Virus record (IMG/VR): IMGVR_UViG_3300043449_001264
Span: 1 to 38,639 of that record
Reading direction: 5' to 3' (one strand)
Origin: a virus
Length of the DNA: 38,639 nucleotides
Shown: in pieces, positions 107 through 38,639 of the stretch
Layout of the letters: each line of letters starts with the position of its first letter
Numbering within the stretch: the stretch's first letter is position 1
The notes under the pieces: model-generated
The model's database searches: none
Told to the model about the DNA's origin: nothing
The model's input: only the letters and a program-made list of their open reading frames with translations
Position numbers and translations under genes: made by a program

Positions 107-165
107 GTATCGTTTTTCACTACCCCATGCAAATTGTGTGGCGAGGCGCGACGCAACGTGTTGCA

Positions 166-199
166 GGGTGGGGTGGGGTGAGGCGCGGGGCGCTGGGGG
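166..199 (+). other. G-rich tract with quadruplex potential
   Basis: Five runs of three to five G lie within 34 bases, separated by loops of 1, 1, 8 and 4 bases. One loop is slightly longer than the usual limit of seven. The diverged right copy (38419-38454) has five G-runs with loops of 6, 5, 3 and 3, which meets the standard quadruplex pattern although the sequence differs. Confidence 0.4.
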
Positions 200-267
200 T
201 TAGAGGCGCGCCCCTATGGCGGGGTAGTGTGGGGTATTAGATGTTAGATATAAAGTGTTTTAGGTGT

Positions 268-287
268 TACTGTATATATATACAGTA
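268..287. promoter_or_regulatory. Perfect consensus LexA (SOS) box
   Basis: The twenty bases TACTGTATATATATACAGTA equal the idealised LexA operator TACTG(TA)5CAGTA of enterobacteria and related beta/gammaproteobacteria, with the CTGT-N8-ACAG core. It is a perfect 20-bp palindrome. The right-end allele has an identical box at 38533-38552 although flanking bases differ. No gene starts close by: the nearest rightward start is 731 and the nearest leftward start is 12 (38264). It may therefore control a leader transcript, the origin, or one of those two operons. Confidence 0.85.
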
Positions 288-320
288 GTGTAAATTATAG
301 GGACTTTTTTTAGGGGGGTG

Positions 321-519
321 CCCCAACTACCCCAACTACCCCACACTTGGCGCCCGCAGCCCCACGCCAGCAGCCGGGTGGCGTGGGGTACCCCACGCAA
401 AACGTAAAACCAATCAGGCATCGGGCTACCCCACGCCACCCACGTTTCGCATGACCATGCGCAGCTAGGCGAACGCTTGTCGATCCGTGGGGCACTACCC
501 CACGCCACCCACGTTCCCC
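321..519. repeat. TACCCC/GGGGTA repeat cluster with an 18-bp palindrome
   Basis: TACCCC occurs at 328, 337, 389, 427 and 496. At 381-398 it forms the perfect palindrome GCGTGGGGTACCCCACGC. A 21-base direct repeat beginning CTACCCCACGCC occupies 426-446 and 495-515, 69 bases apart. GTGGGG and CCCCAC at 487-503 form another dyad. More copies lie outside (121, and GGGGTA at 221 and 231). The regularity suggests a protein-binding array, for example an origin or phage regulator; no function is known. Confidence 0.6.
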
Positions 520-675: not shown

Positions 676-704
676 TTTTTTATTTTTTATTGCAATGCTA
701 TAAT
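676..704 (+). promoter_or_regulatory. Extended -10 promoter of the late operon
   Basis: TGCTATAAT at 696-704 is a perfect extended -10 (TGn plus TATAAT). The -35 position is only a T-run (676-681), and the upstream stretch TTTTTTATTTTTTATT resembles an UP element. Transcription should begin near 711, giving a leader of about 20 bases before the terminase start at 731. The leader contains the imperfect dyad TGTCAC-ATAAATT-GTTACA (709-727), a possible operator. No phage RNA polymerase is encoded, so host sigma70 holoenzyme is the likely user. Confidence 0.7.
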
Positions 705-730
705 TACCTGTCACATAAATTGTTACAGCC

Positions 731-1171
731 ATGACCTTCCAATCCTTGCCGCTCACCGCGCGCAAACTAGAGGCGACCGAGGCGCGCTTGCAGCGCATCT
801 ATGAGGCTGCCAAGTTGGGTCTAAAGGGTGACTCGCTGGCGTTAAAGGCTGGCATGCTGCCGACCGAGTATCGGCGTCTGTGCGAGATGGACCCTATTGC
901 CGAGATGGCAGAACAGAAGGGGCGCGCTGACGCAGAAGGAGCGCTTGCGGCTGTGATGATGGACGCCGCGCTTTCCGGCGACACCAAAGCGGCGTTAGAG
1001 ATCCTTCGTCACCGACACGATTGGGTGGCTAAGCAACAAGTGCAGATCGACGTAGCGCAACAGATCAGCGTAATATCGGCGCTTGAGAAAGCAGAGCAGC
1101 GCGTCATCGACGTGCAGGTAACAGAGCGACTGGAGCCAACACTTGCAGCAGCCGATCTACAACGCCTCTGA
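731..1171 (+). CDS. Putative terminase small subunit
   Basis: This 146-residue protein is first in the late operon and overlaps the large terminase gene, the usual place of the small subunit that recognises the packaging site and regulates the ATPase-nuclease. Residues 20-55 (RIYEAAKLGLKGDSLALKAG) look like a helix-turn-helix for pac binding. The middle is helical, and the C-terminus is acidic and helical, as expected for oligomerisation and large-subunit contact. No strong Shine-Dalgarno is visible before the ATG. The call rests on position, size and the HTH-like start; the family could not be named precisely. Confidence 0.7.
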   Translation: MTFQSLPLTARKLEATEARLQRIYEAAKLGLKGDSLALKAGMLPTEYRRLCEMDPIAEMAEQKGRADAEGALAAVMMDAALSGDTKAALEILRHRHDWVAKQQVQIDVAQQISVISALEKAEQRVIDVQVTERLEPTLAAADLQRL

Positions 1172-2669
1172 TGAAATGCTCTTGATGACGCGGCTCTGGC
1201 AGCCGCGCATCAAAGACGACCCGGAAGCGTTTGTAAACTTTGCGTTTCCGTGGGGGCAACAAGGCACGCCACTGGCCAACTACAAAGGTCCGCGCAAGTG
1301 GCAGCGTCAGGTGCTGCGGAAGATTACGCAACACATCAAAGACAACGGCGGCAAAGTTGACTACAACGTCTTCCGGCTGGCGGTTGCGTCAGGCCGGGGG
1401 ATTGGTAAGTCTGCGCTAGTGTCATGGCTTGTGCTGTGGATGCTTTCGACGCGCATAGGATCCACGACAATTGTGTCGGCTAACAGTGAGGCGCAACTTC
1501 GCAGTATCACCTGGTCAGAAATCACCAAGTGGCTGGCGATGATGATTAACAGCCATTGGTTTGAGATCAGCGCGACCAAGGTTGCACCGGCTAAGTGGCT
1601 GGCAGAGATTGTCGAGCGGGACTTGAAAAAAGGCACGCGCTTCTGGTCGATCGAGGGGCGTCTGTGGTCGGAAGAAAACCCGGACGCTTACGCCGGTCTG
1701 CACAACCTGGACGGTGTGTGTCTGATCTTTGATGAGGCGTCAGGTATTCCAGACTCAATCTGGCAGGTGGCCGCTGGCTTCTTCACAGAAAACACGCCGC
1801 ACAGGTTCTGGTTTGCCTTTTCCAATCCGCGCCGCAACCAAGGCTACTTCTTTGAGTGCTTCAACTCGAAGCGCGACTTCTGGTCGACCGAGAACATCGA
1901 CGCCCGCGACGTCGAGGACACTGACAAACAGGTCTACGAGCAGATCATCGCGGAGTACGGCGAGGACTCGATACAGGCCAAGGTGGAGGTGTACGGGGAG
2001 TTCCCCAGCGCGGGCGACGATCAGTTCATTGGACCCGCGCTGGTCGATCAGGCGTTTGGCCGACCCAAGCACAAAGACGAGACAGCGCCTATTGTGATCG
2101 GCATCGACCCGGCCAGGTCAGGCGGTGACTCGACGGTTATTGCGGTGCGCCAAGGGCGTGACATCATTGCGATCAAGCGGTACCGGGGCGATGATACGAT
2201 GACGACCGTGGGGCACGTCATCGACGCGATTGAGGAGTACAAGCCGACGCTGACGGTGATCGACGAGGGTGGGCTGGGGTACGGCATACTTGACCGGCTG
2301 GTCGAACAGCGGTATAAGGTGCGTGGGGTCAACTTTGGCTGGAAAGCCAAGAACCAAGTGATGTGGGGTAACAAGCGCGCTGAGCTGTGGGGTGCGCTGC
2401 GGGACTGGCTAAAAACCGCGTCGATCGCGCCAGACAGGCAACTGAAAGCGGATCTGACCGGGCCGAAGACCAAACCCGACTCAAGCGGTACGATCTTCTT
2501 GGAGAGCAAGAAGGATATGAAAGCCAGGGGTCTAGCTTCTCCTGACGCCGCCGATGCGATCGCGGTGACGTTCGCATTTCCTGTTGCCTCCCGCGAGCCT
2601 CGAGCAACTATGCCCCGTCGCCACTACAGCGACCGCACCGCAGGCGCAACCGGCTGGATGGGAGCTTAA
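1143..2669 (+). CDS. terL: Terminase large subunit (packaging ATPase-nuclease)
   Basis: The 508-residue protein drives DNA into the procapsid and cuts the concatemer. Walker A is SGRGIGKS (83-90) and Walker B with the catalytic Glu is CLIFDEAS (193-200). The C-terminal RNase H-like nuclease has acidic motifs in IGIDPARSGGDS (about 325), TVIDEGGLG (about 375) and SPDAADA (about 480). The N-terminal FVNFAFPWG and GPRKWQ segments are typical of this terminase type. The TTG at 1143 has GGAG six bases upstream; an ATG at 1176 would remove only eleven residues, so the start is open. It overlaps the preceding gene by 29 bases. Confidence 0.93.
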   Translation: MQQPIYNASDEMLLMTRLWQPRIKDDPEAFVNFAFPWGQQGTPLANYKGPRKWQRQVLRKITQHIKDNGGKVDYNVFRLAVASGRGIGKSALVSWLVLWMLSTRIGSTTIVSANSEAQLRSITWSEITKWLAMMINSHWFEISATKVAPAKWLAEIVERDLKKGTRFWSIEGRLWSEENPDAYAGLHNLDGVCLIFDEASGIPDSIWQVAAGFFTENTPHRFWFAFSNPRRNQGYFFECFNSKRDFWSTENIDARDVEDTDKQVYEQIIAEYGEDSIQAKVEVYGEFPSAGDDQFIGPALVDQAFGRPKHKDETAPIVIGIDPARSGGDSTVIAVRQGRDIIAIKRYRGDDTMTTVGHVIDAIEEYKPTLTVIDEGGLGYGILDRLVEQRYKVRGVNFGWKAKNQVMWGNKRAELWGALRDWLKTASIAPDRQLKADLTGPKTKPDSSGTIFLESKKDMKARGLASPDAADAIAVTFAFPVASREPRATMPRRHYSDRTAGATGWMGA

Positions 2670-9096: not shown

Positions 9097-9857
9097 TAAA
9101 TAATGGTCTCCTCTAGGGGAAACCCTAGTAGAAAAACTGTGTGAATTCGGTGGACGTCATGTAAGATGATTACATGAAAACACCGAGCCAAGCCAAAGAT
9201 GAAACAAGCCCCGACATCGACGCAGCAACCAAGCAACGCGAGCAAAACCGCGAAGCTGCTGCTCGCTATCGGGAACGCAACCGAGAAAAAATCAATCAGC
9301 GAATGCGCGATTGGCGGGAAGCAAATCGAGAAAAAGCTCGAGAGCACTCCCGTGAATGGCGCAACCGGAAACTGGCAAACGCAAGTCCTGAAGAAGAAGC
9401 AGCAATCCGTGCTTCTGAAGCAGCCAAAACAAAGCGTAGCCAAGACCGGCGCAGAGACGAAGTGTTTGCCGCGTATGGCGGCTACAAATGCGTCTGTTGC
9501 GGAGAAGCTGAGCGAATGTTTTTGTCGATTGATCACATTGACAACAACGGCAATGTGGAACGTAAGTCAGGTGCTTACCGCAGTAGCGGCACCGCGTTCT
9601 ACCTCTGGCTGTGCAAGAACAAGTTCCCTTCGGGGTACCAAGTTCTCTGCATGAATTGTCAAGTGGGCAAGCACAAAAACGGCGGCGTTTGTCCTCATCA
9701 GCGGAAGGTGTAACGACTATCCCGTAAGGGAGTACAGCCAAGCGGCTGGAAGCGCACAGCCCCTCGCAAGAGGGTGAAGAGATAGTCTGCTCTGCATGGT
9801 GACATGCAGCAGCCCGAAAGGGCGGTCAAGGCGTAGCGAACCTTGGCGAACACATGG
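9097..9857 (+). ncRNA. Self-splicing group I intron in the coat gene
   Basis: The 761-base intron follows a U and ends in G, as required. P1: GAGAU (9092-9096) pairs with GUCUC (9106-9110) with the U-G wobble at the splice site. P2: CUAGGG/CCCUAG with GAAA loop (9113-9128). The segment TAGTAGAAAAACTGTGTGAA resembles the td-type P3/P4 region. P7: GACTAT (9715-9720) with ATAGTC (9782-9787). Small stems (9720-9747) fit P7.1/P7.2; P8 is 9761-9774. Stems at 9792-9809 (GTGA loop) and 9812-9823 (GAAA loop) fit the P9 series. The P7 extras suggest subgroup IA. The HNH gene occupies a peripheral loop. Confidence 0.93.
9174..9713 (+). CDS. Intron-encoded HNH homing endonuclease
   Basis: The 179-residue protein has an Arg-rich helical N-terminus with repeats like RERNREKINQRMRDWREANR (residues 35-65), likely DNA-contacting. 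The C-terminal HNH fold has CVCC (about 112-115), LSIDHIDNNG as the catalytic His/Asn motif (about 125-134) and CMNCQVGKHKNGGVCPH as the second metal site and final H/N element. It should cut intronless coat alleles to copy the intron. Its TAA stop overlaps the start of the P7 strand, so translation could disturb the catalytic core. Only a weak ribosome site is visible. Confidence 0.92.
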   Translation: MKTPSQAKDETSPDIDAATKQREQNREAAARYRERNREKINQRMRDWREANREKAREHSREWRNRKLANASPEEEAAIRASEAAKTKRSQDRRRDEVFAAYGGYKCVCCGEAERMFLSIDHIDNNGNVERKSGAYRSSGTAFYLWLCKNKFPSGYQVLCMNCQVGKHKNGGVCPHQRKV

Positions 9858-36359: not shown

Positions 36360-36422
36360 TTAGAGTCGCAGCGCGACGGCCAGCACCGCGACAAGTAGAC
36401 CGACTAGGATCGCTGCGATCAT
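36360..36422 (-). CDS. 20-residue membrane microprotein
   Basis: The frame encodes only a hydrophobic helix with one Arg near the end (starts MIAAILVGLLV). Its ATG overlaps the preceding stop (ATGA), and it is the last gene before the terminator. Coupling and membrane character support reality; the very short length leaves doubt. It is the third membrane peptide of this operon. Confidence 0.5.
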   Translation of the reverse strand: MIAAILVGLLVAVLAVALRL

Positions 36423-36637
36423 AGGATGTTAAGGCGCTCGGCGATCGTCGGCCGATTGACGATCAGCCAGCGCGCGAATTTCACGGTTTGCGCAGCGCGC
36501 GCATAGGAATGCGGCCACGCCCGCGATGGCGAGCGGATCGTCGCAAAGTATTCGACGATTTCGTCGCAGGGATACCAGCGCCCAGCGTTATCGGTCCTGC
36601 CGATCGCGCGAATAGATTTCCAGTCTAAAGTTTTCAT
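36419..36637 (-). CDS. Small soluble protein, 72 residues
   Basis: The ATG at 36637 overlaps the upstream stop (ATGA); the frame open to 36772 runs through two other genes. It contains KTLDWKSIRAIGRTDNAGRW, IVEYFATIRSPSRAWPHSYA and FARWLIVNRPTIAERL. It sits between two membrane microproteins. The TCTAAAGTTT motif is inside codons 2-6. Function unknown. Confidence 0.68.
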   Translation of the reverse strand: MKTLDWKSIRAIGRTDNAGRWYPCDEIVEYFATIRSPSRAWPHSYARAAQTVKFARWLIVNRPTIAERLNIL

Positions 36638-36732
36638 GATGACAATCCAAAAAAGAGTGCACACCCGAGCGCGATGCCGGCGCCGATAAATTTGGCGTAC
36701 GGAGGGATGTCTGCAAAGCGGATAGTTTTCAT
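36634..36732 (-). CDS. 32-residue membrane microprotein (paralogue A)
   Basis: MKTIRFADIPPYAKF is followed by a membrane span IGAGIALGCALFFGLSS. The span is near-identical to that of the 28-residue protein at 36914-37000 (shared GIALGCALFxGLS) and both end by ATGA overlap with the next gene. The two are evident tandem paralogues. A clear ribosome site is lacking here. Confidence 0.62.
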   Translation of the reverse strand: MKTIRFADIPPYAKFIGAGIALGCALFFGLSS

Positions 36733-36743
36733 GGTCGCGGCGA

Positions 36744-36917
36744 TCATAGTTGGATTGGTTTTGACCGAACAAGAATGCTTTTGAGGTCTACACGCGGGAT
36801 TGGCAAACCCTTAGACGCTCGTCGCAACACCCAGGCCCAGTGCCAATAGTGTGCGGGAATTGTTGCCGGCACTTTGAGCGGTGACAATTTAATAAGGTCT
36901 AAAAAGGGATCACTCAT
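36744..36917 (-). CDS. Small soluble protein, 57 residues
   Basis: The ATG at 36917 overlaps the stop of the upstream membrane peptide (ATGA). The product has MSDPFLDLIKLSPLKVPATI, HYWHWAWVLRRASKGLPIPR and ends SKPIQL. It ends 11 bases before the 32-residue membrane gene. Unknown function; I find no relation to the 72-residue protein beyond position. Confidence 0.65.
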   Translation of the reverse strand: MSDPFLDLIKLSPLKVPATIPAHYWHWAWVLRRASKGLPIPRVDLKSILVRSKPIQL

Positions 36918-37000
36918 GCTGATAACCCCATAAAGAGCGCGCAACCGAGCGCGATGCCTGCGGCGATGAAAATAACCCATTCGATAAGGTTTGAGGGCAT
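36914..37000 (-). CDS. 28-residue membrane microprotein (paralogue B)
   Basis: The peptide is MPSNLIEWVIFIAAGIALGC followed by ALFMGLSA. The ATG at 37000 has GAGGAG eight bases upstream, the best ribosome site of the three membrane peptides. Its span matches that of paralogue A (36634-36732) at the protein and partly the DNA level. Confidence 0.68.
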   Translation of the reverse strand: MPSNLIEWVIFIAAGIALGCALFMGLSA

Positions 37001-37012
37001 GTCAGTGTCTCC

Positions 37013-37438
37013 TCAACGAAACCAACGGCCAGCGAGCGAGCGCCCAAGCTCCATGCGCGCCATGCGCCGGATGTCGTCAGCTGTCTGGGCGCCGCACTTC
37101 TCGCGGAAGTAATCCCACAAGGTAGCGGCGAGCGTGGCGCATGCCGCTGCGCGGTACTCGATCGGGTAATACTGGCCCGTGGTGTAGTCGACACGCACCA
37201 CATTGCCAGCCGGCACGAAATCGATTCGATGGTGCGAGGCCCGCAGAATATCGTCGGCGCCGATACTGTCGCGCCAATGGATTGCTTTGAGCATAGCGCG
37301 GGCGTCGTGAAGGTGCCGCAAGGCGCGGCGAGCGTCGGCGCGATATGCCTCGGGCGCGCCTGCGTAGTTTGCCGGATCAAATCCGGGGCGTGATTCGATG
37401 AAGGCATGCAAGGCTTGGATGATTTGCGAGCGTGTCAT
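37013..37438 (-). CDS. Conserved phage protein, 141 residues
   Basis: The ATG at 37438 lies eight bases after GGAG; a GTG at 37447 overlaps that site. MTRSQIIQALHAFIESRPGF, YRADARRALRHLHDARAML, DYTTGQYYPIEYRAAACATL and MARMELGRSLAGRWFR are familiar from proteins I recall in Burkholderia-type phages. Mostly helical. No function is known. Confidence 0.82.
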   Translation of the reverse strand: MTRSQIIQALHAFIESRPGFDPANYAGAPEAYRADARRALRHLHDARAMLKAIHWRDSIGADDILRASHHRIDFVPAGNVVRVDYTTGQYYPIEYRAAACATLAATLWDYFREKCGAQTADDIRRMARMELGRSLAGRWFR

Positions 37439-37443
37439 GTTGA

Positions 37444-37740
37444 TCACTCCTCGTTCTGTTCGTTGTATTCGTTCTCGGTCAGCCCGTGAAAGGCTAGTTC
37501 ATAGCCTTTGTGGACTAGGCGGAAATGGGCGGTACTGCTGCCGTGCTGTTTTATAAACGACCACAGGCGCGTGATCTTGACGTCTCGCATGAGCGATGCT
37601 GGCATGTCGGACATGCGCACATAGTCGCGGATTGCTTGCGCCAGATCACGCCGGCGAGTTACTTCAAAGGCGCCGAAATGAGTGTCAGGCATGTAGCAGC
37701 CAGAAAGGCCAAGGGTGACAGCGTAGCGTGCGGGTTTCAT
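37444..37740 (-). CDS. Conserved phage protein, 98 residues
   Basis: The product starts MKPARYAVTLGLSGCYMPDT and has FGAFEVTRRRDLAQAIRDYV and RLWSFIKQHGSSTAHFRLVH, then an acidic tail. CGGAGA precedes the ATG. Similar proteins occur with the 141-residue neighbour in other phages, so the pair is a conserved unit. Unknown function; a role in early host takeover is a guess. Confidence 0.8.
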   Translation of the reverse strand: MKPARYAVTLGLSGCYMPDTHFGAFEVTRRRDLAQAIRDYVRMSDMPASLMRDVKITRLWSFIKQHGSSTAHFRLVHKGYELAFHGLTENEYNEQNEE

Positions 37741-37790
37741 AGTGTCAGTCTCCGGGGTTGAAAGCGCACCCGTAGGCGCGCGGGTGATGA

Positions 37791-38003
37791 TTAGTCAGCA
37801 AGGGATAGGGCAGTGCGCGCGATCGTGTTGATAGCGTCGCCTTCAGGGGTGCTGTCGGCTATTTGGCGAAGGGCGGCCAGTAGATCAGGCGCAGCGGCGA
37901 TCAGGCGCGCGTCGGCGCCGTTCATTGGCACAAGCGCGCGCAGGTTGTTGCCGTATACGTTTGCGCCGATTACGCGCCAAGGTCCAGGGGTTATTTTTTG
38001 CAT
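37791..38003 (-). CDS. TPGPW-family small protein (second copy)
   Basis: The 70-residue protein has ITPGPWRVIGANVYGNNLRA and NGADARLIAAAPDLLAALRQ, the same family as the 90-residue protein at 28331-28603. The ribosome site is weak. A CACCCG/CGGGTG hairpin (37767-37786) lies just after its stop, before the next gene. Function unknown. Confidence 0.8.
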   Translation of the reverse strand: MQKITPGPWRVIGANVYGNNLRALVPMNGADARLIAAAPDLLAALRQIADSTPEGDAINTIARTALSLAD

Positions 38004-38030
38004 GATTTTGCTCGGGTGGATGCGCCCCGG

Positions 38031-38264
38031 TTAAAGATCGCGCCACTGAACGGTCGCGGTGATTTCGTAATCGGTGCCAAAGCAGCGCTTAACAATATGC
38101 TCGACCGTCTCGGTCGCGCCGTTGATCACAAGCAACCCTTTACCGAAATACCGACCGAATAGCGCGCGCTGGTCGGCCTTCGGCATGCGCACCTTGACGC
38201 ATCCTAGTGGCGTGCCAGTGGCTTGTGTAACGTAGTTGGCAAGGTCAGTGGCTTTGCTGTACAT
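38031..38264 (-). CDS. First gene of the leftward right-end operon, 77 residues
   Basis: The ATG at 38264 has AGGAG six bases upstream; the frame open to 38384 runs through the promoter region. It encodes MYSKATDLANYVTQATGTPL, VKVRMPKADQRALFGRYFGK and VEHIVKRCFGTDYEIT. An alpha-beta fold is likely. As the first gene under the operator-bearing promoter it may act immediately early. The start is repeated at window position 12. Confidence 0.78.
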   Translation of the reverse strand: MYSKATDLANYVTQATGTPLGCVKVRMPKADQRALFGRYFGKGLLVINGATETVEHIVKRCFGTDYEITATVQWRDL

Positions 38265-38311
38265 CGTCGGCTCCTGGGTTGTTGGCGCGCTCACGCGAGC
38301 GCATGGACAGC

Positions 38312-38341
38312 ATCTTGCCACAACATTTGTGGCAGTGTCAA
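38312..38341 (-). promoter_or_regulatory. Leftward promoter and operator dyad, complete copy
   Basis: This is the copy of 60-89 that lies in front of the complete gene at 38264. TTGACA is at 38341-38336 and the dyad GCCACAA-CAT-TTGTGGC at 38317-38333. The start codon is about 50 bases downstream. Confidence 0.5.
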
Positions 38342-38532
38342 CCCATGCTCTAAAGTTTGTATCGTTTTTCACTACCCCACGCAAAACGTGTTGCGGGCTG
38401 CGACAAGTCTTAGGACATGGGTGAGGTGGGGCGCGTGGGGGATAGGGGCGTGGGCGGCGCTGGATATAGGCGCCCCCCTAGGGTGGGGTACTGTAGGGTA
38501 GTAGGTAGTATCTTAAAAATGTTTTGTGTTTA

Positions 38533-38552
38533 TACTGTATATATATACAGTA
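38533..38552. promoter_or_regulatory. Perfect LexA box, second allele
   Basis: The site is identical to 268-287. Flanks differ (GTTTA versus GGTGT on the left side), so retention of all 20 bases suggests selection. Confidence 0.85.
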
Positions 38553-38639
38553 GTGAAATTATAGGGAACTTTTTTTAGGGGGGTGCCCCAACTACCCCAA
38601 CTACCCCACAGCCCCGCGCCCGCAGCCCCACGCCAGCAG

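Follow-up and report, generated by a model that had tools for sequence, protein, structure and literature searches.

The locus described here raises the question of what a perfect 20-bp palindrome, TACTGTATATATATACAGTA, does in the control region of a podovirus-like genome, and which protein would bind it. The DNA analysed (the window, 38,639 nt) is one IMG/VR virus record, IMGVR_UViG_3300043449_001264, with portal, TerL, scaffold, coat, DNA polymerase A, primase/helicase, exonuclease and endolysin gene families. A sequence-only reading had described the palindrome as an exact LexA box of the TACTG(TA)5CAGTA type; the exactness was borne out for both 20-mers of the window (Table 1). No third site of this kind was found in the window within 3 mismatches (0 expected in shuffles), and no further CTGT-N8-ACAG site scored at least 14/20; chance was ruled out as the source of the match by shuffles of the window and by the permuted palindromes described below.

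The ends of the window overlap: positions 1–131 are near-identical to 38253–38383, the sequences then diverge, and the box and its right flank are again near-identical, TACTGTATATATATACAGTA being unchanged between the alleles despite ca. 130 bp of divergence on its left. In box-bearing relatives the box is single and internal to the contig, and the contigs of several relatives also have overlapping ends; the two copies are therefore taken as one locus, and the window most plausibly represents a circular map of ca. 38.25 kb, the ends of which come from two strain alleles. The right-end copy had correctly been noticed as a box intact beside a diverged flank, but it is not a second operator; two separate operators are ruled out, a single locus being seen from both ends of the circular map.

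Table 1. Features of the control region and adjoining genes (window coordinates).
Feature	Position	Strand	Basis or remark
Probable LexA-type operator TACTGTATATATATACAGTA, left-end allele	268..287	.	exact match, conserved in lineage
Probable LexA-type operator, right-end allele of the same locus	38533..38552	.	exact match, end overlap
Predicted −10 (TATACT) of rightward promoter, left box edge, right-end allele	38531..38536	+	promoter scoring across relatives
terS, presumed small terminase subunit, first gene rightward of box	731..1171	+	position before TerL, lineage conservation
terL, large terminase subunit, start of rightward late/morphogenesis cluster	1143..2669	+	PHROG 2 match
First gene leftward of box, 77 aa, function unassigned	38031..38264	-	no Pfam match
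TACCCCAC-type repeat units	121..345	reverse left of box, forward right of box	
Further repeat units: GGGGTACCCC palindrome, ACCCCACGCCACCCACGTT twice	383..510	.	
Predicted separate terS promoter, extended −10 TGCTATAAT	680..715	+	read from sequence, conserved in near relatives

The exact 20-mer was found by a 20-mer search in 78 IMG/VR contigs, 53 of which belong to this podovirus lineage (neighbouring genes homologous to TerS, TerL, primase or polymerase of the window); the earlier expectation that natural boxes rarely match all 20 bases thus needs qualifying for these viruses. Wherever terS is present among the exact-box contigs of the lineage, the box lies upstream of it at 362–1037 bp; it is kept across terS proteins 35–100% identical, and the flanks are unalignable between clades. 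For an unbiased sample, relatives were collected by TerL, so as not to select for the box. A CTGT-N8-ACAG site scoring at least 14/20 precedes terS in 21 of the 55 TerL tree rows with enough upstream sequence; a match of at least 17/20 was obtained in 19 of 54 unbiased upstream regions (ca. 1000 permuted palindromes of the same composition: mean 0.011, maximum 4). Box presence on the TerL tree requires 10 changes, and well-supported branches make 8 of these unavoidable; judged from this tree, the box is gained or lost at least 8 times in the lineage. About 60% of the lineage is without the box, including relatives at 99% TerL identity (L081, L084, L087), and the box is therefore dispensable.

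Other palindromes stand at about the box position before terS in box-free relatives (TTTTATGCGCATAAAA in L145 and L147; GTTATGTTATAAC-like in L097 and L103); they are perhaps sites for other regulators, and the box position may accordingly be a general regulator socket. The search for an isolate phage close to the window phage, or for an isolate host, returned neither.

The palindrome agrees at 20/20 with the canonical SOS box of gamma- and beta-proteobacteria, a CTGT-N8-ACAG palindrome. In 20 near-match loci (at least 17/20, core not required) CTGT and ACAG are invariant throughout, changes being confined to positions 1–2, 7–13 and 19–20; such substitution tolerance is expected for a LexA site. 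Outside the lineage, a UmuD-like or UmuC-like reading frame adjoins the box in ca. 8 of 25 exact-box contigs; Peptidase_S24 was confirmed by Pfam for two of these ca. 8 contigs, and for two other scanned contigs, with no Pfam match, the UmuD-like call rests on a GFPSPAxDY start.

As to the probable host group, TerL relatives in GTDB genomes were found in MAGs only, several of them labelled Rhodoferax, Burkholderiales or beta-proteobacterium. The LexA recognition helix in these MAGs is SANAAEEHL, close to the E. coli sequence; SOS-type boxes precede lexA, and the best whole-genome box matches lie before umuD/umuC and imuA-imuB, with 18/20 matches at the umuDC/imuAB promoters in two co-binned MAGs. 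None of the binned TerL relatives inspected carries the box, so the host link for box-bearing phages is indirect, the host assignment resting on MAG binning; LexA and the SOS motif of the probable host group are compatible with the box. Taken together, syntenic conservation, LexA-type tolerance, umuD/umuC neighbours elsewhere and the match to the Burkholderiales SOS motif and LexA helix uphold the initial suggestion, and TACTGTATATATATACAGTA very probably serves host LexA as an operator. As such, a LexA operator is an ordinary kind of element; its setting has to be considered next.

In a comparison of gene families, covering 11 genomes or fragments with the box and 8 without it, no family was common to all of the former and absent from all of the latter. 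Tyrosine integrase (PF00589), S24 (PF00717), HTH_3 (PF01381) and ParA-type AAA_31 (PF13614) gave no match in 13 genomes, in line with the earlier remark that integrase and CI-like genes are absent; the lysogeny capacity of LexA-controlled temperate phages (integrase, partition, CI-like gene) was thus not found in these 13 genomes. No recognised antirepressor gene was found beside the box, which is flanked by terS on one side and by a cluster of small genes of variable content on the other, not by an antirepressor or lysogeny-maintenance gene. Host LexA is the economical binder, since no phage gene tracks the box and no S24/HTH_3-type match was obtained; on the same two grounds a phage-encoded LexA- or CI-like binder was rejected, though an unrecognised repressor may escape such domain searches. 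The nearest named relative, DSL-LC05, is predicted to be virulent by BACPHLIP (PMC10611076).

The control region (ca. 0.7–0.8 kb) separates a leftward small-gene cluster from terS, the nearest genes being 270–440 nt from the box on either side. The terS product has no family match of its own. The first leftward gene belongs to the variable cluster (ca. 36419–38264), the gene content of which differs widely among relatives. In this cluster, adjoining the box, a DNA polymerase III beta-clamp-like gene (PF02767) was observed in some relatives (L211:13516–14157; L184:8972–9562) and a DUF7227 protein (PF23872; L183:1523–2245) in G007; several further relatives with the box encode a weaker DUF7227-like protein close to it. 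Elsewhere in the window, a stretch of ca. 100 bp (9704–9812), at the end of an HNH gene (9174–9713) and just before the coat gene, matches enterobacterial phages, in their homing-endonuclease and thymidylate synthase regions, at 80–87% DNA identity; no Rfam intron match was obtained for it.

Repeat units of ca. 9 bp, paired and inverted around the box, occupy positions 121–510 and 38373–38610. The 99%-TerL-identical relatives L081 and L087 have another unit, TGACCCATT, at the same place, and TTGTCCACA, TTGCCCACA and TAGCCTAA occur at the counterpart place in other relatives; the arrays look like a fast-diversifying specificity site. TerS is unlikely as the binder of these repeats, for relatives with 99% identical TerL have different ones. 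Farther right (618–690), much of the family retains a GC-rich element ahead of terS, GGTGAGGGCCGGCGACC...GGTCAAAAACGGAGGGG, with an A/T-rich tract after it; this is possibly a packaging (pac/cos) or RNA element. An Rfam search of the region gave sub-threshold matches only and no known RNA element.

Promoter scoring of 25 relatives gave a rightward signal with the −10 at offset −2, above 200 of 200 flank shuffles; the −10 hexamer is TATACT in many relatives and overlaps the left box edge. For 17 less-related sequences the same rightward offset was still the best, its score being reached by 15 of 300 shuffles. A leftward promoter at the box was rejected, its signal being at shuffle level (187/300). 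The left-end allele has GTTACT in place of TATACT, a weaker −10. When the window by itself was scanned with a simple promoter consensus, no matches were obtained, and the stretch from the box to terS showed nothing resembling an intrinsic terminator. There is thus modest support, from scoring across relatives, for a box that overlaps a rightward promoter.

On these grounds the following scheme is proposed, which as a whole we consider on balance probable: a LexA-repressed rightward promoter at the box would gate transcription into terS-terL and the late genes by the SOS state. Host LexA on the box would cover the −10 and the start of the promoter and keep it shut; RecA filaments, formed on DNA damage or as the phage replicates and host DNA is broken down, would provoke LexA self-cleavage and open it; the rightward transcript would then read across the leader with its repeats and on into terS-terL and the late genes. 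Since terS appears to have its own extended −10 promoter, the LexA-controlled promoter would be additive to it. By this means, and without its own repressor, the phage would sense the SOS state of the host and so time or defer packaging or the late phase. LexA binding, the position and direction of the promoter, the late-gene effect and the role in timing or deferment we infer from sequence; that the target is the rightward, late side has, in our estimate, slightly better than an even chance. The sequence fits either the timing of one infection or a dormant carrier state.

In the second of these cases the LexA operator would serve dormancy, an unintegrated circular or plasmid-like prophage being held by LexA and induced by SOS, for which GIL01 is the precedent (PMC4551915). 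The inverted arrays around the box do resemble plasmid iterons in layout, and their type differs between near-identical genomes, as an incompatibility or immunity determinant would; we nevertheless hold dormancy to be unlikely, seeing that AAA_31 (ParA), integrase, S24 and HTH_3 were unmatched in the 13 genomes, that DSL-LC05 is predicted virulent and that the bacterial-genome matches are all MAG contigs, none from an isolate. An action of LexA on the leftward small-gene cluster, or on the region as a replication origin, would suit a box placed between divergent gene clusters, at the centre of inverted repeats and within AT-rich DNA (30% GC in the left arm, against 51% on the right), where bound LexA could block origin melting. 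The shuffle-level leftward signal and the widely variable content of the cluster speak against the former; GC skew does not change over at the box, by which an origin as indicated by skew was rejected, and this reading as a whole is about as improbable as dormancy.

The identity of the binder and the nature of the conservation can be questioned in the same way. Were the palindrome the site of a phage-encoded regulator with LexA-like specificity, one of several palindromes used at this position, the different palindromes of box-free relatives would be accounted for; but no gene family tracks the box, the 20-mer is identical where drift would be expected (terS 35–100% identical), and the motif is that of the host SOS consensus and of the umuD sites of other viral contigs, which makes such a regulator quite improbable. 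A perfect palindrome within an AT-rich patch might also be conserved as an AT-rich or cruciform structural element to which no protein binds. Substitutions, however, spare CTGT/ACAG and strike the centre without compensation (e.g., ATATCCGT, ATGTGTGT), and conservation is therefore not of the helix type; nor do permuted palindromes of equal composition occur, and this explanation is given hardly any weight. Host LexA acting on a rightward promoter is accordingly retained as the preferred reading in the comparison with known systems.

Single canonical CTGT-N8-ACAG operators bound by host LexA are known from coliphage 186 tum and the Gifsy and SPC32H antirepressors (cited in PMC9437464); there LexA controls the antirepressor of a phage repressor, whereas here neither gene was found and terS is the next gene on the right. 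In GIL01 of Bacillus thuringiensis, a temperate plasmid-like tectivirus, host LexA acts together with phage gp7 at promoter P1 (PMC4551915). The present locus shares with it a host LexA site in the phage control region, no need of integration and no classical CI repressor; it differs in that GIL01 has several Bacillus-type boxes and depends on gp7, while here one gamma/beta-type box stands beside terS in a tailed podovirus lineage without signs of lysogeny. The likeness to GIL01 and 186 put forward in the sequence-only reading consequently fails as a statement of kind, those phages being temperate, with LexA holding the lysogenic state or an antirepressor, and no tested lysogeny module being present here. 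Lytic deferment has been described for phages regarded as virulent, with CtrA sites in Caulobacter-type phages and Spo0A sites in phi29 (PMC9437464). These too are host transcription factor sites in phage control regions, used to time or defer lysis; here the factor would be LexA (DNA damage), with one site per genome, on the packaging-gene side. The attributes of that class (host-regulator site, no lysogeny module, conservation in relatives) were all found at sequence level, and by analogy the proposed function resembles CtrA/Spo0A deferment more than the lysogenic switches of GIL01 or 186. The umuDC/imuAB SOS promoters of Burkholderiales have the same operator sequence class, but serve chromosomal DNA repair genes, not a phage. 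The nearest named phages by TerL (68–70%), DSL-LC05 (OR003940) and ctNMl277 (MW202483), have a similar divergent layout and repeats before terS; no LexA-type box was seen upstream of terS in either.

Phage use of host LexA has been described for temperate phages. What appears to be new here is a single-copy, position-conserved, repeatedly gained and lost LexA-type box in a lineage in which no lysogeny module can be recognised. In its fullest form, which we put forward tentatively and regard as doubtful, the proposal would be that truly virulent, widespread freshwater podoviruses with no repressor of their own gate packaging or late transcription on SOS through a single LexA operator, that infection-caused or environmental DNA damage triggers the late phase, and that the site has been lost and has returned many times over, its place being taken by other palindromes (possibly those of other regulators). 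The many close relatives with and without the box constitute a natural experiment. More generally, the locus suggests that the host damage alarm helps to time the viral cycle in lytic-looking freshwater phages; if a virulent-looking lineage depends on LexA, purely lytic infections, too, would come under SOS induction, with consequences for phage-antibiotic synergy, for the way UV affects phage production in lakes and for the frequency with which 'virulent' phages stall in cells.
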